Below the pieces are notes generated by a model, which was given only the letters and a program-made list of their open reading frames with translations, searched no databases and was not told where the DNA came from. The position numbers and the translations under genes are program-made. Positions 11,824-33,333 of a stretch of DNA of 33,578 nt are shown in pieces (positions within the stretch are counted from its first letter, which is position 1; the number at the start of each line of letters is the position of its first letter). This DNA is from Bacteroidales bacterium (GTDB lineage Bacteria > Bacteroidota > Bacteroidia > Bacteroidales > UBA932), in assembly GCA_017443845.1 (NCBI GenBank), contig JAFSXX010000001.1:1-33578 (forward strand), given 5' to 3'.

Positions 11824-11856
11824 ATCGAAAAAAAAGGGGGAAAACCGATTAATTTG

Positions 11857-11864
11857 TATATTTG
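11857..11864 (+). promoter_or_regulatory. -7 promoter element for dsbD
   Basis: TATATTTG matches TAnnTTTG and lies 34 nt before the ATG at 11899. It supports that start over the upstream in-frame TTG at 11854. Confidence 0.62.
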
Positions 11865-11898
11865 TCGGCAATCATTTAATAACAAAGACTTATACCTT

Positions 11899-13920: not shown

Positions 13921-13930
13921 TCAGGCCCTT

Positions 13931-15088: not shown

Positions 15089-15104
15089 AAAAACTTTGTA
15101 CTTA

Positions 15105-15226
15105 GACATCTTGCAGTCGGAGACGACATTACCTCCTGAAAAGTGTGCGCCCCCGGCACACGGGGAGGGGCCCACGAAGTGGGAGGGCCTTTTCAGGAGG
15201 TAATGTCGCGGAGACGTAAAGATGTC
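15105..15226. repeat. Complex palindromic element with nested hairpins
   Basis: CGACATTACCTCCTGAAAAG (15124-15143) is an exact inverted copy of 15189-15208. Outside it, GACATCTT (15105-15112) pairs with AAGATGTC (15219-15226). Inside the 45-nt centre are two small hairpins: TGTGC/GCACA (15144-15148 with 15156-15160) and CCCAC/GTGGG (15171-15175 with 15179-15183). The whole can fold into a long stem ending in two hairpins, a cruciform-like unit filling the gap between the PCMD and glycosyltransferase genes. It could be a repeated intergenic element, a miniature mobile element or an mRNA-processing or termination structure. There is no U tract in either direction. Confidence 0.8.
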
Positions 15227-15234
15227 GTCATAAA

Positions 15235-16008: not shown

Positions 16009-16010
16009 AG

Positions 16011-16901: not shown

Positions 16902-17234
16902 CTACTCCGGTATATAAACTATCTCTCCGTTTTCAAGTTCGTAGGCCGAGCCGACGCGCCGTCCGAGCCGGCCCTCCCTGGAGGACTCATCTTCAGGCGA
17001 GTAGCGTTTCAACTGCCCCGCCTCGCGGGTGATTATCTCCATATCGGCCTTACCGGGATTCTTGACCACAGTGAAATCCTCTCCCGAGAGGAATTCGGTC
17101 ATATTGTAGCGGGCAGTCAGGGCCACCATCAGCGCCACGGCGAAGACCATCGCCACGTCGAAAAGATTGGCGGCGGCCGACATCGGATTGACGTCGCCCT
17201 CTTCCCTGAGAAGCCTGTTCCTACTCTTTCTCAT
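16902..17234 (-). CDS. DUF2149-family ExbD-like membrane protein (HmuV type)
   Basis: Small membrane protein of 110 residues. A short basic cytoplasmic N-terminus is followed by DVNPMSAAANLFDVAMVFAV, which resembles the ExbD/TolR start, with Asp26 inside the single transmembrane helix where ExbD keeps its proton-carrying Asp. A periplasmic C-terminal tail of about 65 residues follows. DUF2149 proteins accompany ExbB-like and CobN-like proteins in archaea and Bacteroidota, and the corresponding Porphyromonas gene is hmuV. I choose the ATG at 17234, which overlaps the ExbB-like gene by 14 nt, rather than the TTG two codons upstream. It probably forms a proton channel with the ExbB-like protein. 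Confidence 0.78.
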   Translation of the reverse strand: MRKSRNRLLREEGDVNPMSAAANLFDVAMVFAVALMVALTARYNMTEFLSGEDFTVVKNPGKADMEIITREAGQLKRYSPEDESSREGRLGRRVGSAYELENGEIVYIPE

Positions 17235-17814
17235 TGTCAATCACGGAATTGATATATTCGAGGTCGTTCATCTCGCCGGAGAGCCAGCGCTGCTTCACCT
17301 GCAGCGTCACAACTCCTACGGCCGCAACCAGCATTCCTATTACCGTGGTCGCGAAGGCAACCTGCATATTGTATGCCATCGAGGCCAGATCGCCGGATGC
17401 GAGCCCCACAAGCGCGGGACCCATGGGAATCAGGGTTCCCATAAGGCCGAGCATCGGGCCGACCTTGGCCAGGATGCGGGGACCTCCGAGCTCCCTGGTG
17501 GCATCGACCTCATACTGGGCAAGGACGCGTTCCCGGTAAGCGGAGTCGCCCTTATGTGCGAGAAGGGCCGCTATGGCGCGGGGAAAAAGATCCTTCGAAG
17601 GGCTTGTAAGAGAGACGAGCTGCCCGGAGATCGCCTGGGGTTCGCCGTCCAGAATGGCCTTGAGCCTCTTCTGCCTGCCGCTCCGGCGCAGGAATTCGCC
17701 GAAAAAGCCGCAGACCAGTACCGTGGCCTGCACGAGGAAAAGGAGCAGGATCACCACTACGGGCACCATAAGTCCGTTTGAAATCCAGAACAGTGCGTTG
17801 GAGATAGTTTCCAT
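17221..17814 (-). CDS. MotA/TolQ/ExbB-family proton-channel protein (HmuU type)
   Basis: Inner-membrane motor protein of 197 residues. It has an N-terminal helix (about 13-38), a cytoplasmic loop, and two closing helices in the family pattern: VGPMLGLMGTLIPMGPALVGL, then NMQVAFATTVIGMLVAAVGVV. Length matches ExbB/TolQ proteins. It overlaps the DUF2149 gene and lies 18 nt after the polytopic membrane protein gene, so the two channel subunits are made together. By family knowledge such pairs turn proton flow into mechanical work on a partner; here the likely partner is the CobN/HmuS-type protein of the same operon rather than TonB. The partner assignment is inferred from gene order. Confidence 0.88.
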   Translation of the reverse strand: METISNALFWISNGLMVPVVVILLLFLVQATVLVCGFFGEFLRRSGRQKRLKAILDGEPQAISGQLVSLTSPSKDLFPRAIAALLAHKGDSAYRERVLAQYEVDATRELGGPRILAKVGPMLGLMGTLIPMGPALVGLASGDLASMAYNMQVAFATTVIGMLVAAVGVVTLQVKQRWLSGEMNDLEYINSVIDNEKE

Positions 17815-17832
17815 ATTGCGATAGTTTTATTG

Positions 17833-18366
17833 TCAGAATGTAAAGGCTCCCGCTGCGGCGACGGTCAGCAGCAGGATGAAAATATTCACCAGGAATAGGG
17901 CTTCCAGAGGCTCGCTTTCGCTGCGGGAGAGGGCTTTTACGAGCAGGATTCCACCGGCTGTCACAATGATGGAGGCGATGGCCGCACCGATTCTGAAAAG
18001 GGTGAAATCGACTCCCGGAAGGGCGTACAGGGTCAGGACCGGGAGGAGGCAGAGCGAAGGGATGGCCAGGATCTCGGGAACCCACAGGGTCCAGGCCGAC
18101 CTCTCCCCGGCGCGCAGGAAGCAGAAGAGAATCATCAGGATGGCTTCGGTTACCACCGCTGCCGAGACGTCCGCCAGGATTTTCCTGTCCGAAAACACCC
18201 CGGTGACGGCGCTGCTGGGCTGGGAAGTGAGCCACGGGAAGGCGAACCAGAGCGCGAGAGCCGCAAGTGCCACCAGGGCCACCCAGCTTTTGCGGGGCAT
18301 CAGGGCCCCTTTCAGCACAAAGCTGAATATCAGCAGGATGGCTATGAGGGTGAAAAGCAGCTGCAT
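17833..18366 (-). CDS. Polytopic membrane protein of the chelatase operon (HmuT-like position)
   Basis: A 177-residue very hydrophobic protein with about five or six predicted transmembrane helices (near residues 2-20, 26-43, 68-85, 95-115, 125-147 and 157-176) and short loops; no catalytic motif is visible. I do not recognise a characterised family from the sequence. It occupies the position of hmuT, between the CobN-like and ExbB-like genes of the Porphyromonas/Bacteroides hmu operon. Its start is 4 nt after the CobN stop, so it is certainly co-translated. It could be a membrane platform for the motor or a path for a tetrapyrrole or metal; neither is shown. Confidence 0.62.
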   Translation of the reverse strand: MQLLFTLIAILLIFSFVLKGALMPRKSWVALVALAALALWFAFPWLTSQPSSAVTGVFSDRKILADVSAAVVTEAILMILFCFLRAGERSAWTLWVPEILAIPSLCLLPVLTLYALPGVDFTLFRIGAAIASIIVTAGGILLVKALSRSESEPLEALFLVNIFILLLTVAAAGAFTF

Positions 18367-18370
18367 CCCG

Positions 18371-21300
18371 TTATTCCTCCCTTTTCCGTCTTAATATCAG
18401 CAGCAGGATTACCAGCAGGGCGGTCAGCGCTGCGCCGACGATTCCGGCGTACGCAGCAAAGCCGTTGCGGCTTTCCGGGCTCCTGCCGCCTTTCTCCTTC
18501 AGGACCACTTCCCGGGCATCGCTTCCGGAGGCGTTCCGCATCGAGTTCATAGCCTTGTCGTACAGGGTTCTGCTTCCGCCTTCGAGGTGCTCCGAGATGA
18601 AGCGCTCGAGTTTGGCGTTGCCGCATACGAACTCGGTGCAGGCGGGGCCGTTTTCGGCGGTGACGGCGGCGTGCAGCTCCGCAACTTTCCCGAGCTGCTC
18701 CGGGGATGCCTTCCAATACCCTTTGCGGGCGCTTTCGAGCATCACGGCGGTCATCGCCTGGTACGCCGCAGGATTGGTGCGGTCGAAGAATTCCCGGATG
18801 CCCAGGCCGTTCTCATCCAGGATATATGTCTTGTAGAGATCGTCGAAAAGCTGCCCGTCGAGCGCAGAGGGACGGGTGGCGTTCCAGCCGAAGACATTGC
18901 GGAACATCTCGCCGAACATCTGGGCGGAGCCCTCGCCTCCCTTCATCCTTTCGGAGATGAAAACGGGGTTGAGGAGGGTCGCGCGGGTCTCGACCGCCAC
19001 AGCCTCGCGGAGGTTCTGCATCCTGCGGTTGTTGCGGTTGCGGTAATCGGCCATATAGGCTTCGGGCTCCTTTCCGGTGAGGTGCCTTACGGCATTCGAG
19101 AGGCCTCCCGTGAATTCATATACGTGGTCGAGCGAGACGGGCCCCCAGGTATTGCTCTGGCGGGGCTGGACGATTGCATCGGTCTCGGAGAGGGCAGCCG
19201 CGAAGAGCCCCTTTTCGAATCCCGCCCACTCTTCCTCGTCGCCGTAGGCGGCACCCATATTGTTGAGGTATCCCTCCGCAATCTGGTTTTCATCGTCCCA
19301 GCTCCAGCTGTTCTCCACGAAATCGAGCATTCCTGAGCCGTATCCGCTGTTGAGGGGGCCGAAGATACGCATCACGGAGAGTTTGCGGGCCCGCTGGGGG
19401 GACAATCCCTCATCGAGCAGAAGCTTCTCCTGCAGCCGTGTACCCGAGGCCACGAAATTGGGGAATCCCTCTTCCGGGGCCTCCGATGCCATCTTTATGG
19501 CCTCCGTGAGGAGCATCAGCCGGCTGGCGGCGATATCGCGCAGCTGGCCCGAGACCTGTACCGCGACGTTTATCCTCGGGCGCCCGAGTTCGCTTGCGGG
19601 AATCAGCCGGAGGTCCACCACGTGGCCCTGCTTGTCGCGCAGCGGTTCCACTCCCAGCATCCGGAACGCCTGCGCTATGGTGGCCCCTTCGGTGGAGATG
19701 AACTCTCCGGCCCAGAAAGTGTAACTCACCTTGCGGGGATACTCGCCGTGCAGGGCGAGATACTCCTCCAGGGTCTTGTCGGCCAGCCTCGCGCCATCTT
19801 CCCAGGCCCTTTCGGAAGGGGTGGCCTCGGCATTGACGCCATACATATTGCGGCCTGTGGGGAGCACGTTCGGCTTGAGAACCGGATCGCCTCCGGGAGC
19901 GGGTGCGATGGTTCCGCCCTCAAGCGCCTTGACCATCGCGTCGAATTCGTTGCGGGTGGAGGCCAGAAGGCCGTTGAAGCACTCCAGGGCCGGTCTCAGT
20001 TCCGGCGCCACGAGCGCCGTATCCTTTGGCGGATCGGCCAGCAGTGCCGTAATCCTGCGCCTTGCGGAGGGCAGGTAATGGTGCCTCAGATAGTCGAAGT
20101 CCTGAAGCTGCCCGGTTGAGATCCGCCCCGCATCGCGGTCGCGCCGGGCCATCTCGTATGCCAGCGGATCGGCCGCCACGGCCAGGGTTGTGGCAAGCAG
20201 TTCGCTTTGGGAGTAGGGCCGGCCCATCGTGTAGTATGCGCCCGTGATCTTCTCGTCGGCCAGTTCTTCGATGAAACTGTCGAGTTTTTCGAGATCCTGG
20301 CGGCTGTAGGGCCTGCCCGCGGTGGAATCCAGCCCGAGGTCGCGGTGCAGCCCGAGCCGCAGGGTCTCCTCCTTGATGCGCGTGCCCAGGGCGCTGCCGC
20401 CCTCTTCGCCAAGTGCCTTGTGTATGTCGTCGAGCAGAGCCGTGTATCGGCTGCGGAGCCCGTTCTCCACGAAAGGAGGGGTCAGATAGGTCACCAGCGC
20501 GGCGTGGGTCCGCCGCTTGGCTATGACTGCCTCGCCCACATTGCCGGTAGTGTAGAAATAGAAGTGGGGGAGGCTTCCGATCAGGGCTTCCGGCCAGTCG
20601 GCCGGGGAGAGCCCCGCATTCTTGCCGGGGGTGAATTCAAGGCTTCCGTGGGTGCCGAAATGGATTATCGCATCGGCTTTGAAGCCTTTCCTGACATAGA
20701 GGTACGGCGCCACATAACTGTGCGGGGGAGCCACCGCGGCTCCGTGCACCAACTTGAACGAGTCCTCCCCGAGTGCCGGTCTCGGCTGGGGGAAAAGCAG
20801 TATGTTGCCGAACTTCAGGCAAGCCACGGCGATGCTGTCGCCCCTTGCCAGAAGCCCTCCGGGAGCCTCGCCGTAGAGTTCCGTAATTTCGGCGTATTTC
20901 TGCGGCAGAAGGGCTTCGGAGGCCCATTTTTCGTATTGTTGTTTCGATATCCAGACGGGATGGGCGTTTTTCAGGAATTCGGCCTGGGCGCCGGCGGCGT
21001 ATGAACCCATCACGCTGCCCTCCCTCCGCAGCATCCTTGCGAATGCATCGGAGCCGGAAGGAAGCCCGCTTACGTCATATCCTTCGTCGCGCAGCCGCAG
21101 CAGGAAGTTGTAAATCGAGGGGGCGACCTCCATTCCGCTGGCCAGCAGAGCATCTTTTCCGGGCGATTTGAAGTAGCAGAGGGCCACCTTTTTCTCGGAA
21201 TTCGGCTTGCTCCTCAGGGCGAGGCAGGATGAGATATGGTCGGCCAGAGCGTCGATTCTCCCGACTTCGGCCGTATAATATGAATACCCCTCGTCCGATT

Positions 21301-22285
21301 CCTTCTGCGTCGCTATGCACATTGGAGCCAGGCCTCCGTCTATCTCGGGAATAACCACCCTCGCGGTGAGGGTTCCGCCTGTTACCGGAACCGTCGGATC
21401 CATCCACTCGGAATGGCTCTGAAGGAGGGGAAATGGATTGAATATCAGGATATTCTGACTGTGGAGCCATTGGATGAAACCGTCGCCTCCGAGCCGCCCC
21501 ATCGGGGTATAGATCACGGCATCGGGATGCACGGCGCGGACCATCGCCTCGCGCTTCTTGCCGAGCGCCGTCAGGGGATAGACATTGAACCCCCTTCCGG
21601 TCAGGATGGAGATAAGCGTATCGACATGCGGACGGTTGCCCTCCACGGGGAAGAGCCTGCCCGGGATATAGACTATCCTCGCCCCGCCTTCGTTGTATAG
21701 CCCCTTTTCCTTTAGGTAGGCTGTAAGCTCCTCACTATCGGTAAAATACTTGCCGTATTCGCGGTGGAAAAAGAGGTCCGAGGGGAATACGGTCGGGGGC
21801 TGGCAGGAGCGCCCTCCCTTCCGGTTGGGGGTGGCGACTCTCCTGAGGTAGCGGAATCCGTTGCGGTAATTCTCCCGGCAGGGATTGCCGAAGTATCCCG
21901 ACAGATTCTCGAAGACTTCCTTAGGAAGCCTGCTATTGATGTCGAATTCCTGCCCCTCTGGGCTGTTAATGAAGACCGTCGCCCCGCGTGAGGCGGCCAT
22001 TTCGAGTTCGGCGATGTCGTTCTCGCCGAGAAAGGCCCCGCGGCGGAGCATTATCACCGCATCGTACTCCTTGAGCGATGGGATCTGGGTGTAATCGTTG
22101 AGGAAGGAGAGTTTTACGGCGCGGGTGTCGTTGTTGAGCGCCATATCGGCCTGCTGTCCCTCCCTGGCGTTGATGATCAGCACCTTGGTGGGGGCGAGCC
22201 ATATATGCCAGGCCGCGATGCAAATCAACACGGCTCCGGCAGCTGCCACGATGCCGGTAAGGATCCTCCTACCTGCCCGCTGCAT
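18371..22285 (-). CDS. cobN: Membrane-anchored CobN/HmuS-family chelatase large subunit
   Basis: A 1304-residue protein of the CobN/ChlH/BchH superfamily, which binds tetrapyrroles for metal insertion or removal. Family motifs are clear: IHFGTHGSLEFTPGK near residue 545, FYFYTTGNVGEAVIAKRRTHAALVTYLTPP just after, TFWAGEFISTEGATIAQAFRML near 865 and RPRINVAVQVSGQLRD near 900. Unlike soluble CobN it has a transmembrane helix at each end (about 7-30 and 1272-1298), as in the HmuS branch, which places the body probably in the periplasm. No CobS, CobT, ChlI or ChlD genes are in the window; an ExbB/ExbD-like pair follows instead. Bacteroides HmuS has been reported to remove iron from heme. Here the B12 gene context suggests a corrinoid or precursor, but heme cannot be excluded. 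The start overlaps the CbiK-like gene by 17 nt. Confidence 0.88.
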   Translation of the reverse strand: MQRAGRRILTGIVAAAGAVLICIAAWHIWLAPTKVLIINAREGQQADMALNNDTRAVKLSFLNDYTQIPSLKEYDAVIMLRRGAFLGENDIAELEMAASRGATVFINSPEGQEFDINSRLPKEVFENLSGYFGNPCRENYRNGFRYLRRVATPNRKGGRSCQPPTVFPSDLFFHREYGKYFTDSEELTAYLKEKGLYNEGGARIVYIPGRLFPVEGNRPHVDTLISILTGRGFNVYPLTALGKKREAMVRAVHPDAVIYTPMGRLGGDGFIQWLHSQNILIFNPFPLLQSHSEWMDPTVPVTGGTLTARVVIPEIDGGLAPMCIATQKESDEGYSYYTAEVGRIDALADHISSCLALRSKPNSEKKVALCYFKSPGKDALLASGMEVAPSIYNFLLRLRDEGYDVSGLPSGSDAFARMLRREGSVMGSYAAGAQAEFLKNAHPVWISKQQYEKWASEALLPQKYAEITELYGEAPGGLLARGDSIAVACLKFGNILLFPQPRPALGEDSFKLVHGAAVAPPHSYVAPYLYVRKGFKADAIIHFGTHGSLEFTPGKNAGLSPADWPEALIGSLPHFYFYTTGNVGEAVIAKRRTHAALVTYLTPPFVENGLRSRYTALLDDIHKALGEEGGSALGTRIKEETLRLGLHRDLGLDSTAGRPYSRQDLEKLDSFIEELADEKITGAYYTMGRPYSQSELLATTLAVAADPLAYEMARRDRDAGRISTGQLQDFDYLRHHYLPSARRRITALLADPPKDTALVAPELRPALECFNGLLASTRNEFDAMVKALEGGTIAPAPGGDPVLKPNVLPTGRNMYGVNAEATPSERAWEDGARLADKTLEEYLALHGEYPRKVSYTFWAGEFISTEGATIAQAFRMLGVEPLRDKQGHVVDLRLIPASELGRPRINVAVQVSGQLRDIAASRLMLLTEAIKMASEAPEEGFPNFVASGTRLQEKLLLDEGLSPQRARKLSVMRIFGPLNSGYGSGMLDFVENSWSWDDENQIAEGYLNNMGAAYGDEEEWAGFEKGLFAAALSETDAIVQPRQSNTWGPVSLDHVYEFTGGLSNAVRHLTGKEPEAYMADYRNRNNRRMQNLREAVAVETRATLLNPVFISERMKGGEGSAQMFGEMFRNVFGWNATRPSALDGQLFDDLYKTYILDENGLGIREFFDRTNPAAYQAMTAVMLESARKGYWKASPEQLGKVAELHAAVTAENGPACTEFVCGNAKLERFISEHLEGGSRTLYDKAMNSMRNASGSDAREVVLKEKGGRSPESRNGFAAYAGIVGAALTALLVILLLILRRKREE

Positions 22286-23210
22286 AGTCGGCTTTCTTCT
22301 TCATTATGTCCACCTCGGCGTACTCGGTGGCAAAGCGGATATGGGAGATGTAGATGTCTTGGATTTCGGGAATCTGGCCGAGTCCTTCAAGGACGCATCC
22401 GACCTCGAATCCCTCATCCTCGAGGGCCTTTTTCCAATCGACGGCTATGTCGTTGCTGGCGTGGTCTCCGGCCACGAAGAGGAAGGGCACGAGCGTGACC
22501 TTGCGGGCCTTGGCGGCCTTGAGTTCGGCTAGCAGGGTGTCGTAGGTGGGATATCCCTCAAGCGTGGTGACGTGGAAGAGGCCCAGGTTAGAGACCCTGA
22601 AAATATGGTCCATCTGGCTGTATACCGCGGTTGCAGGGGTATAGGTGCCGTGTCCCACAAACACCACGTGATGATTCTTTTTGATATTGGACAGTTCGAG
22701 ATGCCTTGCCGCAAGCACCAGGGCTACCTTTTGGGAATCCTCCACATCATAGAGCAGCGGCTTGCCGATACGGATCTCCTTGAAGAAGGGGGACATCGTA
22801 GCCGCGTCGCGGCGCAGGGACTCCATCTCGGCCCCGTCCAGCAGGGTGGTGGGCTGCATTATGATATGGGTGAAACCTTCTGCCCTGAGGCGGAAAAGCG
22901 CGTCGAGCGGGGTCTGTTTTTCGATTCCGCGCTCTTTGAGCTTGCGTATCACGATGCGTGAGGTGTAGGCCTCGCGCACCTCGAATTCAGGAAAAGCCTC
23001 ACGGGCCTTTTCGTTGATAGCATCGATTGTCCAGGTCCGGGTTTTGTCGTAAGTGGTTCCGAAGTGGACCATCAGCAGGGCGACCCTGTCACCGCTTTGG
23101 AGAGTCTCTTTCAGAGGGCTCTTGCGGTAACCTCCGTGTTCCTGGGCAATGGCGTCGATACTGAGAAGACACAAAACCGCTATGGCGGCAAATGCAAGGA
23201 TTCTTTTCAT
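22269..23210 (-). CDS. Exported CbiK-family protein (chelatase-like, altered active site)
   Basis: A 313-residue protein of the class II chelatase CbiK family with an N-terminal signal peptide (about 1-22), so it is periplasmic, like CbiKP of Desulfovibrio and the IhtB hemin-binding protein of Porphyromonas. The fold is well preserved: VHFGTTYDKTRTWTIDAI, YTSRIVIRKLKERG, GKPLLYDVEDSQ, VFVGHG and FLFVAGDHASNDIA. However, aligned by eye with Salmonella CbiK, the metal-binding histidine of the QSLH motif corresponds to Thr122 (MQPTTLLDG) and the histidine after GHG corresponds to Thr191 (GHGTYTP). It may therefore bind or hand over a tetrapyrrole rather than insert cobalt into sirohydrochlorin. 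It is the first gene of the leftward operon. Confidence 0.85.
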   Translation of the reverse strand: MKRILAFAAIAVLCLLSIDAIAQEHGGYRKSPLKETLQSGDRVALLMVHFGTTYDKTRTWTIDAINEKAREAFPEFEVREAYTSRIVIRKLKERGIEKQTPLDALFRLRAEGFTHIIMQPTTLLDGAEMESLRRDAATMSPFFKEIRIGKPLLYDVEDSQKVALVLAARHLELSNIKKNHHVVFVGHGTYTPATAVYSQMDHIFRVSNLGLFHVTTLEGYPTYDTLLAELKAAKARKVTLVPFLFVAGDHASNDIAVDWKKALEDEGFEVGCVLEGLGQIPEIQDIYISHIRFATEYAEVDIMKKKADYAAGR

Positions 23211-23263: not shown

Positions 23264-23271
23264 TATCTTTG
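23264..23271 (+). promoter_or_regulatory. -7 promoter element for the riboswitch/btuB transcript
   Basis: TATCTTTG matches the consensus. Transcription would begin near 23278, just where the cobalamin riboswitch starts. It is 20 nt from the divergent leftward -7 element. Confidence 0.65.
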
Positions 23272-23278
23272 CGGCCGG

Positions 23279-23442
23279 TTTCGGTGCCCGAGCCCCACTG
23301 CGGGGCGGAGGTTAAAAGGGAATCAGGTGCAAAACCTGGGCAGACACCGCTGCTGTGAGTCCCATTTGTGTTTCCGACTTTCACTGCCACTGCGCTCCGG
23401 CGTGGGAAGGCGTCGGAAACGGGACGAGCCAGAAGACCTGCC
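23279..23442 (+). promoter_or_regulatory. Cobalamin (B12) riboswitch aptamer
   Basis: The conserved B12-aptamer blocks occur in order. GGTGCC is near 23283. AAAAGGGAATCAGGTGCAAA (23314 onward) is the core, followed by CCTGGGCAGACACCGCTGCTGTGA. TCACTGCCACTGC and GGGAAGGC come next, and the 3' block GAGCCAGAAGACCTGCC ends at 23442. Such RNAs bind adenosyl- or hydroxocobalamin and shut off B12 uptake or synthesis genes when the vitamin is plentiful. It leads into the TonB receptor gene starting 48 nt later, so that receptor is a corrinoid transporter with high probability. Confidence 0.95.
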
Positions 23443-23458
23443 GCGACCGCGTGTTTTG

Positions 23459-23481
23459 AAGCTTTCGGGTAATAAAAGCTT
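23459..23481 (+). promoter_or_regulatory. Hairpin in the riboswitch expression platform
   Basis: AAGCTTT (23459-23465) pairs with AAAGCTT (23475-23481) around a 9-nt loop, 9 nt before the btuB-like start codon. With no U tract after it, the hairpin suits control of ribosome access rather than transcription termination. Confidence 0.45.
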
Positions 23482-23490
23482 TAGTGAACG

Positions 23491-25647
23491 ATGAACTTTT
23501 ACCGGCGATTATCATTTTTGATTGCGCTCCTGTGCTTCTGCGCTTCACTGCGAGGGCAGGATACGATCGGAGTATGGGGAATGCTCAAGGATACCGTGAC
23601 CCTCGAGGCCTCGGCCGTCACAGCCAAGAGCAAGGAACAGACGCTCCGGGAGGGAGCCTATGCCGTCAATGCGGTCAATATCAACACGCAGGCGGCGACC
23701 CTGCAGTCGCTGACCCAGGCTATCGACCGCACCTCCGGCATACGCATCCGCGAGGAAGGCGGTGTCGGCAGCGACTTCGACCTCTCGATCAACGGAATGG
23801 GCGGCAACTCGATCCGCTATTTCCTCGACGGTATGCCGCTCGATGCCAAGGGCTCGGGCGTCACCCTCTCCAATCTGCCGGTCAACCTCATCGAGCGCGT
23901 CGAGATTTACAAGGGCGTCATCCCCGCCAGCTTCGGCAGCGATGCCCTGGGCGGGGCGGTCAATATAATCACCAGCCGCCACCGCCGCAACTATCTAGAT
24001 TTCTCATACGGCGCGGGCTCGTTCCATACCCACAAGGCCGATTTCCGCGCGCAGTACACCGGGAAGAGGACGGGACTCATCATCAGGCCCGTCGTCAGCG
24101 CCCACTATTCCAAGAACGACTACCTGATGCGCGATGTCAAGGTCCGCAACGAGGAGCGTACGGCCTTCATTATCACCGACCTGCCCCGTTTTCACGACGG
24201 ATATCTCTCCCTTTTCGGGCAGATCGAAGCCGGCTTCTCCGGCCGCAAATGGGCGGATGACTTCTTCGTCTCGGCTTCGGCCTCGAAGGTCGACAAGGAG
24301 GTCCAGACCGGCGCCACGCAGTCGTATGTCGTGGGAATGGCGGAGCGCAAAACCCGTTCGCTCAACCTTTCGGCCCGCTATTCCAAACGGGGATTCCTGG
24401 CCGAGAATCTCGACTTCTCGGCGATGGCCTCACATACCTGGGACCATTCGCAGACCATCGACACCACATACCGCCGTTACTACTGGGACGGCACATACAT
24501 AGAGGGCTCATACAGTGAGATCCGCCACCGCGGCAAGACCCTGCGCAACTATTACCGCCCGATGACAATCGTCCGCGGCAACTTCGACTGGCATCTGGCC
24601 GATAACCATTCGCTCACCCTCAATTATCTGCTCAACCGCACAGGCAACCGCCAGGACGACGAGTGGGATCTCGATTATGTTCCAACTGACGATGTCCTGA
24701 CCAAGCACATCATAGGCCTGGCCTACAATCAGGTGCTCTTCGGCGGGAGGATGGACAACGCCTTCTTCGCCAAGGATTACGTCAACCACCTGGAAGTGGG
24801 GCAGAGCGAGTTTCCCTCCACCACCGGTGCCGCGACCGTGGAGCCGGTCAGTACGCGCAACTACATAGGGTACGGCCTGGGCAGCCGATTTGAAATCGAC
24901 GCCCATTTCTCCCTCAAGGGCTCTTACGAGCACAGCGTCCGCCTTCCCGTATCGCGCGAGGTGCTTGGCAACGGCTCGACGGTCTATCCCAATCTCGCCC
25001 TCAGCCCCGAGATTAGCGAGAATTTCAACCTGGGCCTCTTCGGAGCCTGGGATCTCGGCGGAGGACACGTCATCTCCTACGAGGCCAACGGATTCGTCCG
25101 CCTGGTGGACAATTACATCCAGGCCACGGTTTCGGAGACCGAAGGAATGATGCAGTATGTCAACGTGGCTGCGGTCCATATCAAGGGAGTGGACGGCGAG
25201 ATCCGTTACGACTGGGCCGGGAAGCTGCACCTGGGAGCCAATGCCAGCTATGACGACTGCCGCGACCAGCGGGAGTTCAACCAGGACGGCACTCCCTCAA
25301 TAACCTACCGCAACCACACTCCCAACCGTCCGTGGGCCTTCTGTAACGCCGAGGCCGCCTATACCTTCCGCGAGGTGGGCCTGCCCGACAGCCGCCTGCG
25401 CATCGGCGCCGATTACCAGTGGGTGCACTGGTTCTTCGTGACCTGGGAAGCCTACGGTTCGGCCCGCACTAAGCCCCGCATCCCCGCGCAGCATCTGGTA
25501 AACGCCTCGCTGCTCTACTCCTGGATGGGCGGCAGGTACAATGTCTCGCTCGAGTGTACGAACCTGCTCAACGTCCTCTCCTTCGACAACTATATGCTGC
25601 AGAAGCCGGGCAGGGCATTCTTCCTCAAATTCAGATTGTTCCTATAA
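23491..25647 (+). CDS. btuB: BtuB-like TonB-dependent corrinoid receptor
   Basis: Outer-membrane TonB-dependent receptor of 718 residues. A signal peptide (about 1-22) is followed by a short TonB-box region (near TVTLEASAVTAKS). The plug domain contains QAIDRTSGIRIREEGG, SINGMGGNSIRYFLDGMPLD and IERVEIYKGVIPASFGSDALGGAVNIITS. A 22-strand-type barrel ends in the aromatic strand GRAFFLKFRLFL. It lacks the CarboxypepD and STN extensions of SusC proteins, so it is a simple vitamin or metal-complex type receptor. The cobalamin riboswitch in its leader and the BtuFCD genes downstream assign corrinoid as the cargo. The DUF4374 lipoprotein gene starts 29 nt after it and is probably its surface partner. 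Confidence 0.9.
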   Translation: MNFYRRLSFLIALLCFCASLRGQDTIGVWGMLKDTVTLEASAVTAKSKEQTLREGAYAVNAVNINTQAATLQSLTQAIDRTSGIRIREEGGVGSDFDLSINGMGGNSIRYFLDGMPLDAKGSGVTLSNLPVNLIERVEIYKGVIPASFGSDALGGAVNIITSRHRRNYLDFSYGAGSFHTHKADFRAQYTGKRTGLIIRPVVSAHYSKNDYLMRDVKVRNEERTAFIITDLPRFHDGYLSLFGQIEAGFSGRKWADDFFVSASASKVDKEVQTGATQSYVVGMAERKTRSLNLSARYSKRGFLAENLDFSAMASHTWDHSQTIDTTYRRYYWDGTYIEGSYSEIRHRGKTLRNYYRPMTIVRGNFDWHLADNHSLTLNYLLNRTGNRQDDEWDLDYVPTDDVLTKHIIGLAYNQVLFGGRMDNAFFAKDYVNHLEVGQSEFPSTTGAATVEPVSTRNYIGYGLGSRFEIDAHFSLKGSYEHSVRLPVSREVLGNGSTVYPNLALSPEISENFNLGLFGAWDLGGGHVISYEANGFVRLVDNYIQATVSETEGMMQYVNVAAVHIKGVDGEIRYDWAGKLHLGANASYDDCRDQREFNQDGTPSITYRNHTPNRPWAFCNAEAAYTFREVGLPDSRLRIGADYQWVHWFFVTWEAYGSARTKPRIPAQHLVNASLLYSWMGGRYNVSLECTNLLNVLSFDNYMLQKPGRAFFLKFRLFL

Positions 25648-25676
25648 TAATGATAACTGACAAAAAACAAATCGAA

Positions 25677-26990: not shown

Positions 26991-26997
26991 AGTTTGC

Positions 26998-27005
26998 TAT
27001 ATTTG
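26998..27005 (+). promoter_or_regulatory. -7 promoter element for cbiA-btuFCD
   Basis: TATATTTG matches TAnnTTTG, 39 nt before the cbiA ATG. It suggests that cbiA and the ABC transporter genes have a promoter independent of the riboswitch. Confidence 0.5.
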
Positions 27006-27043
27006 CTTCCGGTTTCAGAAATGGAACCGGAAGCTTGTATTTT
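27005..27043 (+). terminator. Hairpin terminator between the DUF4374 gene and cbiA
   Basis: GCTTCCGGTT (27005-27014) pairs perfectly with AACCGGAAGC (27025-27034), and TTGTATTTT follows. It probably ends the riboswitch-controlled btuB transcript. It overlaps the start region of the next transcript. Confidence 0.65.
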
Positions 27044-27044
27044 A

Positions 27045-28331
27045 ATGAAGCCACAGTTACTCATAGGAGCCATAGCTTCGGGAAGCGGCAAAACCACCTT
27101 TTCGATGGGATTGATGCGGGCCCTGCGGCGCCGTGGGCTTGTGGTACAGCCCTTCAAATGCGGTCCCGACTACATCGACACCCGCTTCCATACCGTCGCC
27201 ACCGGCGTCGGATCCGTCAACCTCGACACCTGGATGGCCACCCCGGGGCACGTAAGGGACATTTATCATCATTACGGCAAAGACTCCGACATCTGCATCA
27301 CCGAAGGGGTAATGGGCCTCTTCGACGGCTACGACCGCCTCAAAGGCAGCGCCGCCGAGATCTCCACCCTCCTGCAGGTTCCGGTGGTGCTTCTGGTCAA
27401 CGGCCGCTCCACGGCCTACACCATAGCCGCCCAACTCTACGGAATGAAAAACTTCATTCCCGGGATATCGATAGCCGGAGTGGTATTCAACCAGGTCGGC
27501 TGCGGCAGGCATTCGGAATTCATGCGCCAGGCCTGCGAGGATGTAGGTCTCGAATGCTTCGGCTTCCTGCCGAGGACCCAGGGCCTCGAAATACCCTCCC
27601 GCCACCTCGGACTTACGATGGGGGCCCGGGAGGAGATGGACGCCCTATGCGAGAAGGCGGCGGATCTGGTAGCCCGGAACGTGGATATCGACCGTCTGCT
27701 GCGAGCCTGCACCGTTCCCTTCGCCGAAAAACCGGCCTCAGGACAACTTGAGGCCGGCCAGACCACGGGAAAACTCAGCATAGCGGTAGCCCGCGACGCC
27801 GCTTTCAACTTCACCTACCGCGAGAATCTCGACAGACTCTCTTCGCTGGGTGAGATAACATATTTCAGCCCGCTTGCGGGCGACAGTCTTCCCGGATGCG
27901 ACCTCCTTTATCTGCCGGGAGGCTATCCCGAGCTCTTCGCGAAGGAACTCTCCGGGAGCGCTACCAATCTGCAGATCAGAGAGTTCGCAGAAGCTGGAGG
28001 CAAGGTTCTTGCGGAGTGCGGCGGAATGATCTACCTATGCAAAGGAATAGAGGAGGCTCCGATGTGCGGGGTGCTGCCGTTTGAGGCTACGATGGAGGGC
28101 GCCAGGCTCCATCTCGGATACCGCCGCATCGAAACCTCCGGCGGTTCTTGGCGCGGACACGAATTCCACTATTCGCACCTTACCGCCCCCGATGCCCTCC
28201 CTTCCGTGGCGCGGCAATACAATGCGGCGGGGGAGGAGGTTCCCACCCCGCTTTACAGATACAAGAATACGATAGCCGGCTACACCCACCTCTACTGGGG
28301 CGAGGCCGACATTTTGAAACTATGGGAATGA
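27045..28331 (+). CDS. cbiA: Cobyrinate a,c-diamide synthase
   Basis: Cytoplasmic ATP- and glutamine-dependent amidase of 428 residues that converts side chains a and c of cobyrinic acid to amides in cobamide synthesis. The N-terminal synthetase domain begins with the P-loop GAIASGSGKTT (residues 8-18) and includes KCGPDYIDTRFH and EGVMGLFDGYD. The C-terminal class I glutaminase domain has LLYLPGGYPELF and the catalytic Cys325 in VLAECGGMIYL, with a late GHEFHYS. Length is slightly short for the family but no domain is missing. The ATG at 27045 starts right at the P-loop strand; earlier in-frame starts lie inside the terminator hairpin. The CbiA and CobB variants cannot be told apart by eye. 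It overlaps btuF by 4 nt. Confidence 0.94.
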   Translation: MKPQLLIGAIASGSGKTTFSMGLMRALRRRGLVVQPFKCGPDYIDTRFHTVATGVGSVNLDTWMATPGHVRDIYHHYGKDSDICITEGVMGLFDGYDRLKGSAAEISTLLQVPVVLLVNGRSTAYTIAAQLYGMKNFIPGISIAGVVFNQVGCGRHSEFMRQACEDVGLECFGFLPRTQGLEIPSRHLGLTMGAREEMDALCEKAADLVARNVDIDRLLRACTVPFAEKPASGQLEAGQTTGKLSIAVARDAAFNFTYRENLDRLSSLGEITYFSPLAGDSLPGCDLLYLPGGYPELFAKELSGSATNLQIREFAEAGGKVLAECGGMIYLCKGIEEAPMCGVLPFEATMEGARLHLGYRRIETSGGSWRGHEFHYSHLTAPDALPSVARQYNAAGEEVPTPLYRYKNTIAGYTHLYWGEADILKLWE

Positions 28332-29473
28332 AACAAACGATGATGGCGGCCCTTGCGGCCCTTATGCTGATTGCCTGCCCCTCCTGCAAACAGGGTGCGA
28401 AAAACGTTCAGCCCGCTCCGGCTGTCCCTTCGGTGAGCGGCGAAATCAAAGTTGAATATGCCACCGGCTTCAGCGTAACCTATACCGACTATGGCACGCT
28501 GCTGGAAATCAGCGACCCCGAGAGGGAGGAGGGCCAGGTCTTCCGTTACCTGCTGATACCGACCGAGACCGAGGCCGAAAAGGTACCGGAGGGCTATGAA
28601 ATCCTCGAAGTGCCCGTCGAGAGCGTGGTATGCATGACCTCCCTGCAGCTCTCCAACTTCATCAAGCTGGGCGAACTTGACAGGGTAGTGGGAATCACCA
28701 GCACCCGCCATCTCTTCAATCCGGAAATGAAACAGCGGCTGGCCGACGGCCGCACGCACAAGATCGGCATCGAAGGCAACTTCGACAACGAGGTGATACT
28801 CGCAATGGACCCCGAGGTCATCTTCATATCGCCCTTCAAACGCGGCGGATACGAGGCCCTCAAGGGCGTCGGCATTCCCCTGATTCCCCACCTGGGCTAC
28901 AAGGAGATGACTCCGCTCGGACAGGCGGAATGGATCAAATTCATAGGCCTGCTGACGGGTGAGGAGAAGAAGGCGAACGCCGAATTCGAAGCCATCAAGC
29001 AGCGCTACAATGAGCTGAAGGAGAAGGCTTCGAAAGTGAAGGAGCGCCCCGTGGTGCTCAGCGGCGAATTGCACGGCGGCAACTGGTATGTGGGTGGTGG
29101 CCGCAGCTTCCTGGCCCAGATATTCCGCGATGCGGGAGGCGAATATTTCCTGCCCGACGACCAGACCTCCGGCGGCAAGAACCTCGACTTCGAGACCGTT
29201 TACAGCCGCAGCGACGAGGTCAAGTACTGGAGGATAGTCAACAGCTACGACGGCACCTTCTCATACGACGCCCTCAAGGCCGAGGATGCCCGCTACGCCG
29301 ACCTCTATGCCTTCAAAAACAAGGGCGTGATCTACTGCAACATGCGGGAGAAACCCTTCTATGAGAGTATGCCGGTAATGCCCGAGGTGGTGCTCGCCGA
29401 CCTTATCCATATCTTCCATCCCGAACTCCTTCCGGCCGATTACAAGCCGGTATTCTACGAACTGCTCAAATGA
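28328..29473 (+). CDS. btuF: Corrinoid ABC transporter substrate-binding lipoprotein
   Basis: Periplasmic binding protein of the BtuF/FepB class III type, 381 residues. The lipoprotein signal has the lipobox LIAC (Cys17; a second Cys at 20 is possible). The two lobes joined by a helix are visible from VESVVCMTSLQLSNFIKLGE and DNEVILAMDPEVIFISPF, and the permease-docking region is around YKEMTPLGQAEWIKFIGLL. The start overlaps the cbiA stop in an ATGA arrangement; an ATG two codons earlier is possible. Operon position with cbiA, next to a riboswitch-controlled receptor, argues for corrinoid as the ligand. By family alone, heme or siderophore would also fit. Confidence 0.88.
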   Translation: MKQTMMAALAALMLIACPSCKQGAKNVQPAPAVPSVSGEIKVEYATGFSVTYTDYGTLLEISDPEREEGQVFRYLLIPTETEAEKVPEGYEILEVPVESVVCMTSLQLSNFIKLGELDRVVGITSTRHLFNPEMKQRLADGRTHKIGIEGNFDNEVILAMDPEVIFISPFKRGGYEALKGVGIPLIPHLGYKEMTPLGQAEWIKFIGLLTGEEKKANAEFEAIKQRYNELKEKASKVKERPVVLSGELHGGNWYVGGGRSFLAQIFRDAGGEYFLPDDQTSGGKNLDFETVYSRSDEVKYWRIVNSYDGTFSYDALKAEDARYADLYAFKNKGVIYCNMREKPFYESMPVMPEVVLADLIHIFHPELLPADYKPVFYELLK

Positions 29474-30507
29474 AACGTCCCGTCGCCCTCTGGATGGTGA
29501 TACTGGTTCTCTCCATCCTGGTATTCTTTTTCCTGAACCTGCTGCTGGGGTCTGTCACGATTCCGGCATCTTCGGTGTGGGATATCCTCCTGGGAGGCGA
29601 CGGCGATAAGACAGTCTGGCGCAACATAGTCCTTAAATCCCGCCTGCCCCAGGCCGTGACGGCGCTTGTGGCGGGAGCCGGGCTTTCGGTGGCCGGCCTG
29701 CAGATGCAGACCGTTTTCCGCAACCCGCTGGCGGGCCCTTCGGTGCTCGGAGTTAGTTCCGGCGCCAGCCTCGGAGTAGCCTTCGTAGTGCTTCTCTCGG
29801 GCCGTCTGGGAGGCGTCGCGCTGAGCCGTCTTGGCTATATGGGAGAGTTCGCGATGACTATGGCGGCGATTGTAGGAGCGCTGGCGATAATGGCTCTGAT
29901 AGTATATGTCGCGCAGAAGGTCCGCGGCAATGTCACCCTGCTGATAATCGGCGTGATGATAGGCTATGTCGCCACCGCCATCATCGGAGTGCTGAAATTC
30001 TTCAGCGCCGAGGAGGACGTGCGCGCCTATGTGGTCTGGGGCCTGGGCAGTTTCGCCCGCGTCTCGGGCGGCCAGGTGGCCACTTTCGCTGTGATAATGG
30101 CCGTGCTGCTGCCTCTTTCGATGCTGCTGGTCAAGACACTTAATCTGCTCTTGCTGGGCGACGGATATGCCCGCAACCTGGGCCTCAATATCCGCCGCGC
30201 GCGCCTCTGGGTCATAATCTGCGCCGGTGTGCTGGTGGCCATAGTCACAGCCTATTGCGGCCCGATCTCATTCCTGGGGCTCGCGGTGCCGCACCTCTGC
30301 CGCGCGATGTTCCGCACATCGGACCACCGCATCCTGATGCCGGCCTCCCTTCTTGCGGGTTCCTCGCTGGCATTGCTCTGTAATCTCATAGCCCGGCTGC
30401 CCGGATTCGAAGGGGCGCTGCCGGTCAACTCTGTCACGGCCCTCATAGGCGCCCCGGTCGTGGCGATGGTGCTCTTCAGGCGCAGAAAGGAGGAGACGGG
30501 AGAATGA
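29470..30507 (+). CDS. btuC: Corrinoid ABC transporter permease (FecCD/BtuC family)
   Basis: Inner-membrane permease of 345 residues with about ten transmembrane helices. Family motifs are SRLPQAVTALVAGAGLSVAGLQMQTVFRNPLAGPSVLGVSSGA (residues 54-96), WGLGSFARVSGG, and the cytoplasmic coupling region GPISFLGLAVPHLCRAMFRTSDHR. Only one permease gene is present, so it should form a homodimer with two BtuD ATPases. Start and stop both overlap their neighbours by 4 nt, a tightly coupled btuF-btuC-btuD array. Confidence 0.92.
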   Translation: MKRPVALWMVILVLSILVFFFLNLLLGSVTIPASSVWDILLGGDGDKTVWRNIVLKSRLPQAVTALVAGAGLSVAGLQMQTVFRNPLAGPSVLGVSSGASLGVAFVVLLSGRLGGVALSRLGYMGEFAMTMAAIVGALAIMALIVYVAQKVRGNVTLLIIGVMIGYVATAIIGVLKFFSAEEDVRAYVVWGLGSFARVSGGQVATFAVIMAVLLPLSMLLVKTLNLLLLGDGYARNLGLNIRRARLWVIICAGVLVAIVTAYCGPISFLGLAVPHLCRAMFRTSDHRILMPASLLAGSSLALLCNLIARLPGFEGALPVNSVTALIGAPVVAMVLFRRRKEETGE

Positions 30508-31297: not shown

Positions 31298-32299
31298 TCA
31301 CAACAGGATGAACACCGCAGCCACCAGCGCCACCATCACGATTTCGGCGCCCCGGTTGATGCGGACCGAACGCTCCATATCCTCCGTGGTCAGGGGGCGG
31401 TCGTTTTCCCCGATATAGGGTTTCCAGACCTCCTCGCCGAAGTAGTTGTGCGGCCCGCCGAAGCGGCAGTCGAGGATTCCGGCAAGGGCCGATTCTGGAT
31501 AGCCGGAATTGGGGCTCAGGTGGGCCTTGCCGTATTTCCGGACGAAGGGTAGGAGGTTGAGGCGCCCTGCCACGAGAAGCATCAGGAACGCGCTCAGGCG
31601 TGCGGGGATCCAGCCCGCGATATCATCGAGGCGGGCGGCGAAACGGCCGAACTCGAGGTAACGCTCATTGCGGTATCCGATCATCGAGTCGAGGGTGTTT
31701 ATCATCTTGTAGGCCACCATTCCGGGCACGCCGAGTACCGCGAGCCAGAAAAGCGGCGCTATGACGCCGTCGTTGAGGTTTTCTGCAAGGGTTTCGAGCG
31801 CGGCGGTACGGATTTCCTGCACGGAGAGTTCCGAAGTGTCGCGGCCCACTATGCGTCCGACCTGTTTGCGGCCCTCTTCGAGGGAGCGGTCAGCCGCCTT
31901 GAAGACCTCGCGGACTTCGCGTATCAATGTGGTGCCGGCAAGGCAGAAGAAGATGAGAATGGCCGATATTATGCCCTCCAGCCAGGTTCCAAGACGCATC
32001 GCGCCCTGAAGTGAACCGGAACCCGCCGCATCGCTCATCAGCGCCTTTCCGCCCCATATGAGCGAAGGCAGCGCCCGTGCGATCCAGAGCAGGCACCAGG
32101 TCAGGATAAAAGCCCCGATTACCAGGCCGACAGCCATAAAAGCCCCCTTCCGGACGCGGTTGGCACCGTTGTTCCAGCGTTTCTCACCCTTTGCGATAAG
32201 CTTTCCGAAACCCACGACGGGATGCGGCAGCCACGCGGGGTCGCCGAGCGTCAGATCGAGCAGCCAGCCCGCTGCGAGGGAGATTGCCCTTGAAATCAT
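31298..32299 (-). CDS. cbiB: Adenosylcobinamide-phosphate synthase
   Basis: Inner-membrane enzyme of 333 residues that attaches aminopropanol phosphate (or a related arm) to adenosylcobyric acid. The signature region GDPAWLPHPVVGFGKLI lies at about 19-35. AENLNDGVIAPLFW and NTLDSMIGYRNERYLEFGRFAARLDDIAGWIPARLSAFLM are the conserved loops. Several transmembrane helices are visible (about 50-75, 90-115, 180-200, 240-258 and 315-332). It overlaps the decarboxylase gene upstream by 4 nt, and the two encode consecutive steps of the lower-loop branch. It is called cobD in the aerobic-pathway nomenclature. Confidence 0.94.
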   Translation of the reverse strand: MISRAISLAAGWLLDLTLGDPAWLPHPVVGFGKLIAKGEKRWNNGANRVRKGAFMAVGLVIGAFILTWCLLWIARALPSLIWGGKALMSDAAGSGSLQGAMRLGTWLEGIISAILIFFCLAGTTLIREVREVFKAADRSLEEGRKQVGRIVGRDTSELSVQEIRTAALETLAENLNDGVIAPLFWLAVLGVPGMVAYKMINTLDSMIGYRNERYLEFGRFAARLDDIAGWIPARLSAFLMLLVAGRLNLLPFVRKYGKAHLSPNSGYPESALAGILDCRFGGPHNYFGEEVWKPYIGENDRPLTTEDMERSVRINRGAEIVMVALVAAVFILL

Positions 32300-33333
32300 A
32301 GCCGTCCCTCCATATATTCCCTTATGGCCTCCGTGAGCATATCGTTTTCCTGAGGGGTCTGTGCGGCGATGCGGAAGTATCTCTCATCCAACCCCTCGAA
32401 ATTGGACGCGTCGCGGATAAGCAGGCCGCGTTCGTGTGCCAGATGGGACTTGAGTTCCGCCGCGCTGCCTTCCTTGAGGCGGCAGAGCATAAAATGGGTC
32501 TCGCTCCGGAAGGCCGAAACGCCGGGGATGGCGTCCAGGCATCCGCGGAGCCGCTCCGATTCCCCGAGGAGGGCGTCGAGGTCGATGGGGGCCTCGTCGG
32601 GATGCTCACTCAGATAAAGCCCGGCCTCGATGGCGATGGCGTTTACCGACCAGGGCATCCGTACCGCCCTGACGCGGGAAAGGAGTTCCGGCGAGGCAGT
32701 GATATATCCGAGCCTGAGACCCGGCATAGCGTAGCGCTTGGTCATCGAGTGCAACTGGATTATATTCGGCATCGCGGCGGCTTCTGCCTCGGAGAGCAGC
32801 TCCCTGCGGGTGAAGAATCCGTAGGACTGGTCGATTACGAATACCGTCTCCGGATGGCTCCCTATCGCCGCCAGCAATTCCTCTCGGGGAACGACTCCTC
32901 CGGTTGGGTTGTTGGGATTGCAGAGCCACAGCATATCGGTGTCCGCTGGGATTTCGGGCAGGGTTCCCGCCTGTGCGGCTTGAATATTCGTTATCAGGTG
33001 CCCGTGGAGCCGGCAGGCATCGGCATACTCGCTGAAAGTGGGCTGCAGGATGGCCGTGCGGCTTCCCCTGAATGCCAGGGCTATGAGATAGATGGCCTCC
33101 GTTGCGCCGTTTGTGACGCAGACCGAAGCGGCGTCGCCCAGGCCGTTAAGGGCGGCAAGGCGCGCCTCGAGGGTATAGGGCTCCGGCTCGGGATAGCTTC
33201 CGACCGCGTCGAGATGCCTCCCCAGATGCTCCTTGAGGCCCGAAAGGTCCACTTTTCCATAGACATTCGAGCTGAAATTGGCCTTTATCGGCCTGCCGTA
33301 GAGATATGCGTCGTCGCCGTGTCCCTTTATCAT
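32296..33333 (-). CDS. cobD: PLP-dependent threonine-phosphate decarboxylase (CobD type)
   Basis: Cytoplasmic fold-type I PLP enzyme of 345 residues. In the CobD role it decarboxylates threonine phosphate to aminopropanol phosphate for the partner CbiB. Visible motifs are TNGATEAIYLIA (74-85), NPNNPTGG (139-146), VIDQSY with Asp168, the Schiff-base Lys199 in HSMTKRYAMPGLRLGY and the substrate-carboxylate Arg207. The sequence alone fits both CobD and histidinol-phosphate aminotransferase; the 4-nt overlap with cbiB decides for CobD. Salmonella CobD and CbiB names are used here, and the symbol clashes with the aerobic-pathway cobD. Confidence 0.88.
   Translation of the reverse strand: MIKGHGDDAYLYGRPIKANFSSNVYGKVDLSGLKEHLGRHLDAVGSYPEPEPYTLEARLAALNGLGDAASVCVTNGATEAIYLIALAFRGSRTAILQPTFSEYADACRLHGHLITNIQAAQAGTLPEIPADTDMLWLCNPNNPTGGVVPREELLAAIGSHPETVFVIDQSYGFFTRRELLSEAEAAAMPNIIQLHSMTKRYAMPGLRLGYITASPELLSRVRAVRMPWSVNAIAIEAGLYLSEHPDEAPIDLDALLGESERLRGCLDAIPGVSAFRSETHFMLCRLKEGSAAELKSHLAHERGLLIRDASNFEGLDERYFRIAAQTPQENDMLTEAIREYMEGRL

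Follow-up and report, generated by a model that had tools for sequence, protein, structure and literature searches.

A B12-linked operon in a Bacteroidales bacterium combines an anchored CobN/HmuS-type protein, a CbiK with a signal-like start and ExbB-DUF2149 motor genes

We analyzed a stretch of 33,578 nucleotides from a Bacteroidales bacterium (assembly GCA_017443845.1, contig JAFSXX010000001.1; hereafter the window), which carries a five-gene operon encoding, in this order, a CbiK-type chelatase with a predicted export signal, a large CobN/HmuS-type protein, a polytopic membrane protein, an ExbB-type protein and a DUF2149 protein. In our reading, the CobN protein would belong to a B12-linked branch of HmuS that lacks the family's Met-rich insert, as represented by BtuS1 of Bacteroides fragilis; it would be anchored, face the periplasm, be driven by ExbB and DUF2149 as a proton motor and be paired with the exported CbiK. 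We assign this reading a probability of about 0.5, slightly on the favorable side of even. Gene content and order, the residues, the predicted topology, the side of the tree on which CobN falls and the linkage to B12 riboswitches are directly established.

The operon is tightly packed, with intergenic gaps of –17, +4, +18 and –20 bases from CbiK to DUF2149, and four of its five proteins pass their Pfam cut-offs, all but the 177-aa polytopic one. An initial annotation of the window had named an operon of these five genes, with an exported CbiK, a CobN/HmuS-type subunit carrying a helix at each end, ExbB/TolQ and ExbD-like DUF2149 proteins and an hmuSTUV-like gene order, and all of these assignments held (Table 1): genes of the hmuTUV type follow CobN in the window, as they do downstream of hmuS. 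No sigma-70-like promoter was found by a scan that is uninformative for Bacteroidota. In a same-genus sample, CobN was present in 5 of 19 genomes, each of which carries the identical five-gene order with CbiK directly preceding CobN (in one of these loci, L304, the contig begins within CbiK and holds no upstream sequence). Since the same genes recur in the same order in every CobN-bearing genome sampled from the genus, the set goes beyond a chance collocation. Genes for an esterase, a PCMD protein and a glycosyltransferase (13931-16901, minus strand) lie directly next to the DUF2149 gene, and their co-transcription with the operon is possible.

The CobN/HmuS-type protein and its CbiK partner

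Matches of the window CobN in the PDB are HmuS (9d26, 1179 bits), ChlH (388 bits) and CobN (331 bits). HmuS is a demonstrated haem de-chelatase of solved structure that removes iron with NADH (PMC12583661), so that the initial annotation, which called this activity reported, had understated it. Both ends of the window protein carry a hydrophobic segment, with peak hydropathies of 2.36 and 2.85 and basic residues outside. Because these basic residues lie on the presumed cytoplasmic side, the body of the protein should be periplasmic, and no cytoplasmic location is indicated.

Published markers of the HmuS family are a Met-rich insertion in domain IV and the ligands of the first haem, Met79 and His254; the catalytic pocket includes His538 and His1209 (PMC12583661). 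We compared these positions in five window-type copies, i.e., the window protein and four same-genus relatives (1304-1313 aa), and in 22 HmuS controls from the same order. The pocket is kept in all five copies (His538, Glu577, Ser1067, Gln1198, Ser1199, Trp1202, Asp1208, His1209 and Glu1212). All five are changed at three other HmuS positions, Met79 to Arg, His254 to Met and Ser1014 to Ala, whereas the controls have Met (20/22) or His (2/22) at position 79 and keep His254 throughout (22/22). The Met-rich insert is likewise missing from all five: a 112-aa spacer with 1-3 Met stands in place of the 133-370 aa found in the 22 HmuS proteins, some of whose spacers are also Met-poor. Given the loss of Met79, His254 and the insert, the window CobN is not HmuS proper. 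Judging from its pocket, it should perform HmuS-like chemistry; His538 and His1209 are both kept in 27/27 aligned anchored bacterial copies.

A quick tree of 50 rows separates the window CobN from 25 soluble CobN rows by a branch with a Shimodaira-Hasegawa-like approximate likelihood ratio test (SH-aLRT) support of 99 and places it on the HmuS side, in agreement with the initial annotation, which had compared the gene order with hmuSTUV. In our trees, the window clade belongs to the HmuS branch and has a long stem. Quick trees nest it inside HmuS, but a certain nesting had to be rejected, since an approximately unbiased (AU) test does not reject the alternative of HmuS as one clade without the window copies (p = 0.096); we therefore state the placement just as on the HmuS branch. 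Identity with a soluble cobaltochelatase is ruled out by the tree, the predicted topology and the lack of a CobS match in the genome. Also on the anchored side of the tree is the CobN of locus L176 (7538-11380, minus strand), which has a signal-peptide-like start and is without a C-terminal transmembrane (TM) helix, with no motor found; its gene immediately follows a TonB receptor gene and a B12 riboswitch (13855-13652).

The N-terminus of the window CbiK appears signal-peptide-like by inspection, and PDB relatives of the protein are 1qgo, 2xvx and 9b86. Its catalytic residues His145 and His207 (Salmonella CbiK numbering; positions taken from PMC7689651) are aligned and conserved in CbiK of all five genus copies. 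A CbiK with a signal-like start is also encoded in a Methanosaeta metagenome-assembled genome (MAG; L230:769-1692), ∼3 kb from a soluble CobN.

Linkage of ExbB and DUF2149 to anchored CobN proteins

Both candidate motor proteins retain polar residues across bacteria and archaea: the TM Asp of DUF2149 (Asp28 in the window) is invariant in 38/38 sequences, and Thr127 and Thr157 of ExbB are invariant in 37/37 aligned sequences. We take these positions to be equivalent to the proton-path positions of ExbD and ExbB. No Pfam or NCBIfam family covers the 177-aa polytopic protein; by phmmer, it shows weak similarity to the HmuT proteins of hmu-type loci, reaching 40 bits at most.

Our survey covered 66 CobN copies with their flanks, 38 of them anchored by a C-terminal TM helix and 28 unanchored. 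ExbB and DUF2149 are encoded within 4 kb of 33/38 anchored and 0/28 unanchored copies, and ChlI/ChlD-type proteins within 5 kb of 0/38 anchored and 12/28 unanchored copies. In the loci examined, motor and AAA+ linkage are mutually exclusive. Five anchored copies have no motor nearby: for one, the contig ends directly after HmuT; two lie on contigs that start within the cluster; the remaining two stand further along a Methanosarcina array in which the motor accompanies the first gene. For two of the ATPase neighbors, the best match was checked and was TIGR02442 (putative cobaltochelatase) in both cases, once above and once under its cut-off. Genome G087 contains both types, an anchored HmuS with the motor (L173) and a soluble CobN accompanied by AAA and VWA proteins (L174). 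In the latter locus, a B12 riboswitch, a BtuF-like protein, the soluble CobN, AAA, VWA and CbiZ form one run (6442-15936).

Flanks of the 66 copies were mostly at least 4 kb (short contigs: L170, L208 and L221). The count leaves out the duplicate or cut copies L162_16041 and L231_70 and 30 Bacteroidota loci with flanks of at most 1.5 kb (L272-L301); when these loci are included, 33 copies have motor and anchor, 5 the anchor only, none the motor only and 58 neither. CobN frames below 950 aa were kept out of the tables (fragments in L232, L235, L237 and L242), and those holding the C-terminus show no TM helix; small fragments of G163, G179, G182, G189 and G194 lie outside the flank survey. In the order to which the window belongs, 9 of 149 sampled genomes (its own included) contain CobN, all nine with DUF2149 close to it. 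Two more genomes, G133 and G047, gave weak DUF2149 matches but no CobN match and were not counted as linked systems.

Archaea are not known to have an outer membrane. We screened 50 archaeal genomes, hand-chosen and non-random (mainly of Euryarchaeota type), from 119 loci reached via a 16S pattern. CobN was found in 25 of the 50; the copies retrieved include an anchored CobN for 7 of these genomes. DUF2149 occurs in six genomes (two Methanoculleus, Methanosarcina, Methanocalculus, a Methanosarcinales MAG and a Methanophagales MAG), in every case within a DUF2162-ExbB-DUF2149-CobN cluster whose CobN is hydrophobic at both ends. DUF2149 is thus present in 6/7 archaeal genomes with an anchored CobN compared with 0/43 others (Fisher p = 4e-7); in the seventh, the cluster is cut by the contig start. 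These clusters suggest that the motor belongs with CobN and are the best support for this idea. Since archaea keep them without an outer membrane, they also argue against HmuU and HmuV serving only an outer-membrane receptor. We considered whether HmuT and DUF2162 are the same family and rejected this, as no homology was detectable (hhalign probability 6%). In Methanosarcina sp. 2.H.T.1A.6 (L162, L231), three anchored CobN genes are arranged in tandem.

B12 riboswitches, neighboring genes and the corrin pathway

A B12 riboswitch is found at 3/5 window-type operons (window, L305 and L302) but at 0/21 hmu-type loci scanned (L170 and L314 being left out), a difference with a Fisher p of 0.004 as computed on related sequences. 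At L305, the riboswitch is located upstream on the strand of the operon and is followed by genes for a TonB receptor, a second CbiK-like lipoprotein, a CotH-like protein, CbiK, CobN and the motor. L302 likewise has the riboswitch upstream on the operon's strand, then genes for a PepSY protein, a TonB receptor, an unclassified frame, CbiK and CobN. For the window, the initial annotation had correctly described a divergent receptor gene behind a B12 riboswitch and late cobamide genes nearby (Table 1).

Table 1. Features of the window; positions count from its first nucleotide
Feature	Position	Strand	Evidence
Five-gene operon (CbiK > CobN/HmuS-type > polytopic > ExbB > DUF2149)	16902-23210	-	
DUF2149 protein, HmuV-like, one TM helix	16902..17240	-	Pfam PF09919 3e-29
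ExbB/TolQ/MotA-type proton-channel protein, HmuU-like	17221..17814	-	Pfam PF01618 2e-10
HmuT-type polytopic membrane protein, 177 aa	17833..18366	-	weak HmuT similarity
Anchored CobN/HmuS-type class I (de)chelatase, 1304 aa	18371..22285	-	Pfam PF02514 5e-277
CbiK-type class II chelatase, predicted exported	22269..23210	-	Pfam PF06180 3e-74
Cobalamin riboswitch of divergent TonB receptor gene	23265..23459	+	RF00174, 99 bits
TonB-dependent receptor behind riboswitch	23491..25647	+	Pfam PF00593 8e-20, PF07715 1e-16
Cobyrinic acid a,c-diamide synthase CobB/CbiA	26994..28331	+	NF002204 above cut-off
BtuC-type ABC permease	29470..30507	+	best NCBIfam NF003001 BtuC, under its cut-off
CbiB and CobD-type genes, late cobamide synthesis	31298..33333	-	PF03186, PF00155; TIGR00380 above cut-off, TIGR01140 just under cut-off

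An ABC ATPase is encoded near the btuC-like gene, and its best NCBIfam match is below cut-off. Riboswitch, TonB receptor, permease and ATPase together would fit a complex that energizes corrinoid uptake as an accessory to B12 transport, with no metal chemistry. We regard this as very improbable, since CobN and CbiK keep their chelatase catalytic residues in all five copies and btuC/D-like genes are present separately. Immediately downstream of the riboswitch-linked receptor, a 478-aa protein without a Pfam or NCBIfam family is encoded (25554-26990, plus strand).

The genome from which the window derives is 93% complete. The initial annotation had stated that the ATP-driven partners of CobN are lacking in the window; genome-wide, we found no CobS match, and the sole match to ChlI (PF01078) is YifB/ComM, so that the statement extends to these two proteins, CobT and ChlD not having been searched by name. 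Further ExbB/ExbD genes are present, and a weak TonB match lies next to one set of them. The genome encodes the fused corrin-ring proteins CbiH-C, CbiE-T, CbiG-F and CbiJ-D (G000:C23, L330:8931-15448). By PF00590, neither SUMT nor CbiL was found, two of the five matches being rRNA-methyltransferase-like. A gap in the assembly could account for this; if the absence is real, the organism depends on an outside source for an advanced ring, which may already carry cobalt. PF01903 revealed no second CbiX/CbiK except a match of 0.046 in a 60-aa frame, a search that a divergent second CbiK could escape, as the same model scores the window CbiK at just 1.3e-4 and PF06180 was not searched genome-wide.

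Interpretation, alternatives and known systems

We envisage that a tetrapyrrole enters through the TonB receptor and would be bound by the anchored periplasmic chelatase, in whose pocket its metal would be removed as in HmuS; for both steps we draw on homology, the chelatase being a member of the HmuS branch in which the pocket for de-chelation would have been retained and the features for haem loading lost. In place of the ATP-driven AAA+ ring of soluble CobN/ChlH (CobST or ChlID), proton flow through ExbB and DUF2149 could drive a movement by which the chelatase is reset, its cleft opened and closed or the product released, as gene linkage suggests. The exported CbiK might then insert cobalt or take over the freed ring. 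Linkage is likewise our ground for a physical coupling of motor and chelatase, and homology for metal removal as the probable direction of the reaction. We place the substrate on the B12 side, and not with haem used for iron, as a guess based on the B12 surroundings of the operon.

An ordinary hmu-type haem-iron system, in which the chelatase strips iron from haem and ExbB and DUF2149 power the TonB receptor, seems unlikely to us. In its favor, the window CobN shares its catalytic residues with HmuS, the demonstrated haem de-chelatase (PMC12583661), and HmuU and HmuV have been assigned as ExbB and ExbD serving TonB and HmuR (PMC10100974, PMC12583661), a rival that the initial annotation had not weighed when it read these genes as the chelatase's proton motor. 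BtuS1 of B. fragilis 638R is a second CobN-like protein encoded in an operon with a cbiK gene; the btuS1 mutant had no significant defect in growth on haem iron, the btuS2 mutant a partial one, and the double mutant grew poorly (PMC6460266). A disruption of cbiK caused no haem-iron defect, according to an unpublished result in the discussion of that paper. The double mutant speaks for a role in haem-iron use; the btuS1 and cbiK single mutants speak against it, and the btuS1 result would suit a CobN type whose task lies outside haem-iron use. Also against a haem-iron system are the missing first-haem ligands and Met-rich insert, the riboswitch linkage of the operon type, the archaeal clusters, which keep the motor without an outer membrane, and the other ExbB/ExbD genes of the genome. 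No HmuY match was obtained by phmmer in the five window-type loci, a search that also missed HmuY in several hmu-type loci.

Several points weigh against the B12-linked, motor-driven reading that we prefer. The TonB receptors upstream of the operon at L305 and L302 are similar to HmuR (179 and 43 bits), which makes a haem-like ligand possible. No riboswitch match was found within the retrieved stretch of L303, and the window operon is divergent from its riboswitch, not led by it. The topology of CobN was derived from hydropathy. Purified HmuS performs 1-2 turnovers with NADH and no HmuU/V (PMC12583661), so a motor is unnecessary for the chemistry as such. The periplasmic motor machine of the initial annotation is upheld in its predicted topology, its motor linkage in bacteria and archaea and the lack of AAA+ linkage in the loci examined, whereas its drive by proton flow and its substrate stay at the level of a proposal. 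The btuS1 btuS2 double mutant still forms protoporphyrin IX from haem, about twice as much as the parent, which led the authors to ascribe little or no de-chelatase activity to BtuS1/2 (PMC6460266); these results allow for an overlap of the two proteins and speak against them as the sole de-chelatase of B. fragilis. Among the unanchored CobN copies of our survey, 16/28 have neither motor nor ATPase nearby. ExbB and/or DUF2149 also occur without an adjoining CobN in two archaeal MAGs, one of Methanophagales and one of Methanosarcinales (L163, L164-L168). Finally, gene linkage is not proof of physical coupling, and our Fisher p-values overstate independence because the linked sequences are related. 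One of the CobN-free ExbB/DUF2149 pairs in these MAGs adjoins a 2147-aa CARDB/beta-helix protein.

The archaeal residues likewise tell against our preferred reading. In 8 of the 10 distinct anchored archaeal copies (L160 and the cut L234 copy were left out), motor-linked CobN has His1209 in 0/8 and has also lost His538 in 4/8, so that the motor need not serve chelation everywhere; where these residues are lost, the archaeal complex may serve to bind or transport a tetrapyrrole and not to remove its metal. The CobN proteins of L158, L161, L162 and L234 have lost the HFGTHG motif (Phe at the position of His538, Met at that of His1209) and are likely non-catalytic. These losses speak for a reading in which the motor would drive the polytopic HmuT or DUF2162 protein as a tetrapyrrole or metal transporter, with the anchored CobN as its substrate-binding receptor and not a motor-driven enzyme. 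Such a transporter, which we consider improbable, would also agree with the polytopic gene adjoining the motor in all uncut CobN clusters and with a proposal that HmuTUV carries haem over the inner membrane (PMC13227078). It is difficult to combine with the retention of both histidines in all 27 aligned anchored bacterial proteins, and HmuT and DUF2162 are not detectably related, the shared parts of the clusters being CobN, ExbB and DUF2149.

Our preferred reading can be extended, quite speculatively, to a proton-powered metal-exchange line in the periplasm, in which the HmuS relative would strip the metal, e.g., the iron of imported sirohaem, and the exported CbiK would reload cobalt for corrin synthesis. 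More generally, class I chelatases would then be of two power types, one using ATP (CobST/ChlID) and one a proton motor (ExbB-DUF2149), the latter common to Bacteroidota and methanogenic archaea. If this is true, bacteria without the first steps of tetrapyrrole synthesis could start B12 synthesis from outside material. Porphyromonas gingivalis, for example, is reported to be without the steps to precorrin-2 (PMC6461909), and for Bacteroidota with incomplete early tetrapyrrole pathways the B12-linked branch is a candidate route to a cobalt-loaded starting ring. Published work has not settled what HmuTUV does: besides the proposed haem movement, HmuT, HmuU and HmuV may influence HmuS activity, and P. 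gingivalis HmuS was stimulated in vitro by an inner-membrane fraction (PMC13227078). If the motor belongs to the chelatase, this would be a possible reason why HmuS by itself makes no more than 1-2 turnovers in vitro, and the two power units of class I chelatases would be interchangeable.

HmuS, the hmuSTUV order, the name BtuS and the BtuS proteins of Methanosarcina barkeri are already in print; the BtuS proposal is credited to Rodionov 2003 by PMC6460266, and HmuV relatives in Methanomicrobia have been tabulated (PMC10100974). In the literature searched, as far as its text was available, ExbB-DUF2149 has not been proposed as a chelatase motor, nor have archaeal clusters been argued for it, and the motor-chelatase claim is new to this extent; the search likewise returned no paper joining BtuS, cobalamin and riboswitch.

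Compared with HmuS of Bacteroides thetaiotaomicron (hmuYRSTUV, PDB 9D26), the window protein is alike in its fold family by sequence, two terminal anchors, the pocket and the T-U-V genes that follow; it differs by having no Met-rich insert, no Met79/His254, Ala in place of Ser1014, CbiK in front, no HmuY match and a B12-riboswitch linkage. BtuS1 of B. fragilis shares the cbiK operon and a similar length (∼1320 aa, calculated from a cloned fragment as 4,094 – 45 – 85 nt, against 1304-1313 aa), whereas BtuS2 is HmuS-like, with ∼1448 aa by the same arithmetic. Two archaeal CobN-like proteins of M. barkeri were named BtuS in PMC10846266, the available text of which states that the whole B. fragilis operon is lacking there and mentions neither ExbB nor DUF2149; unlike this remark, motor genes adjoin CobN in Methanosarcina sp. 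2.H.T.1A.6. The large subunit of CobNST and ChlHID is homologous, but it is unanchored, falls on the other side of the tree and has ATP-driven partners. Desulfovibrio CbiK(P) (2xvx) and Fusobacterium FetB (9b86) are, like the window CbiK, members of the CbiK family and are, we presume, exported; we know of no HmuS-type protein or motor linkage for them. With ExbB-ExbD, TolQR and MotAB, the window shares the ExbB family and the TM Asp and Thr in positions that we assume to be equivalent; in the window-type motor, DUF2149 replaces ExbD, the genes are linked to a chelatase, and the combination extends to archaea.

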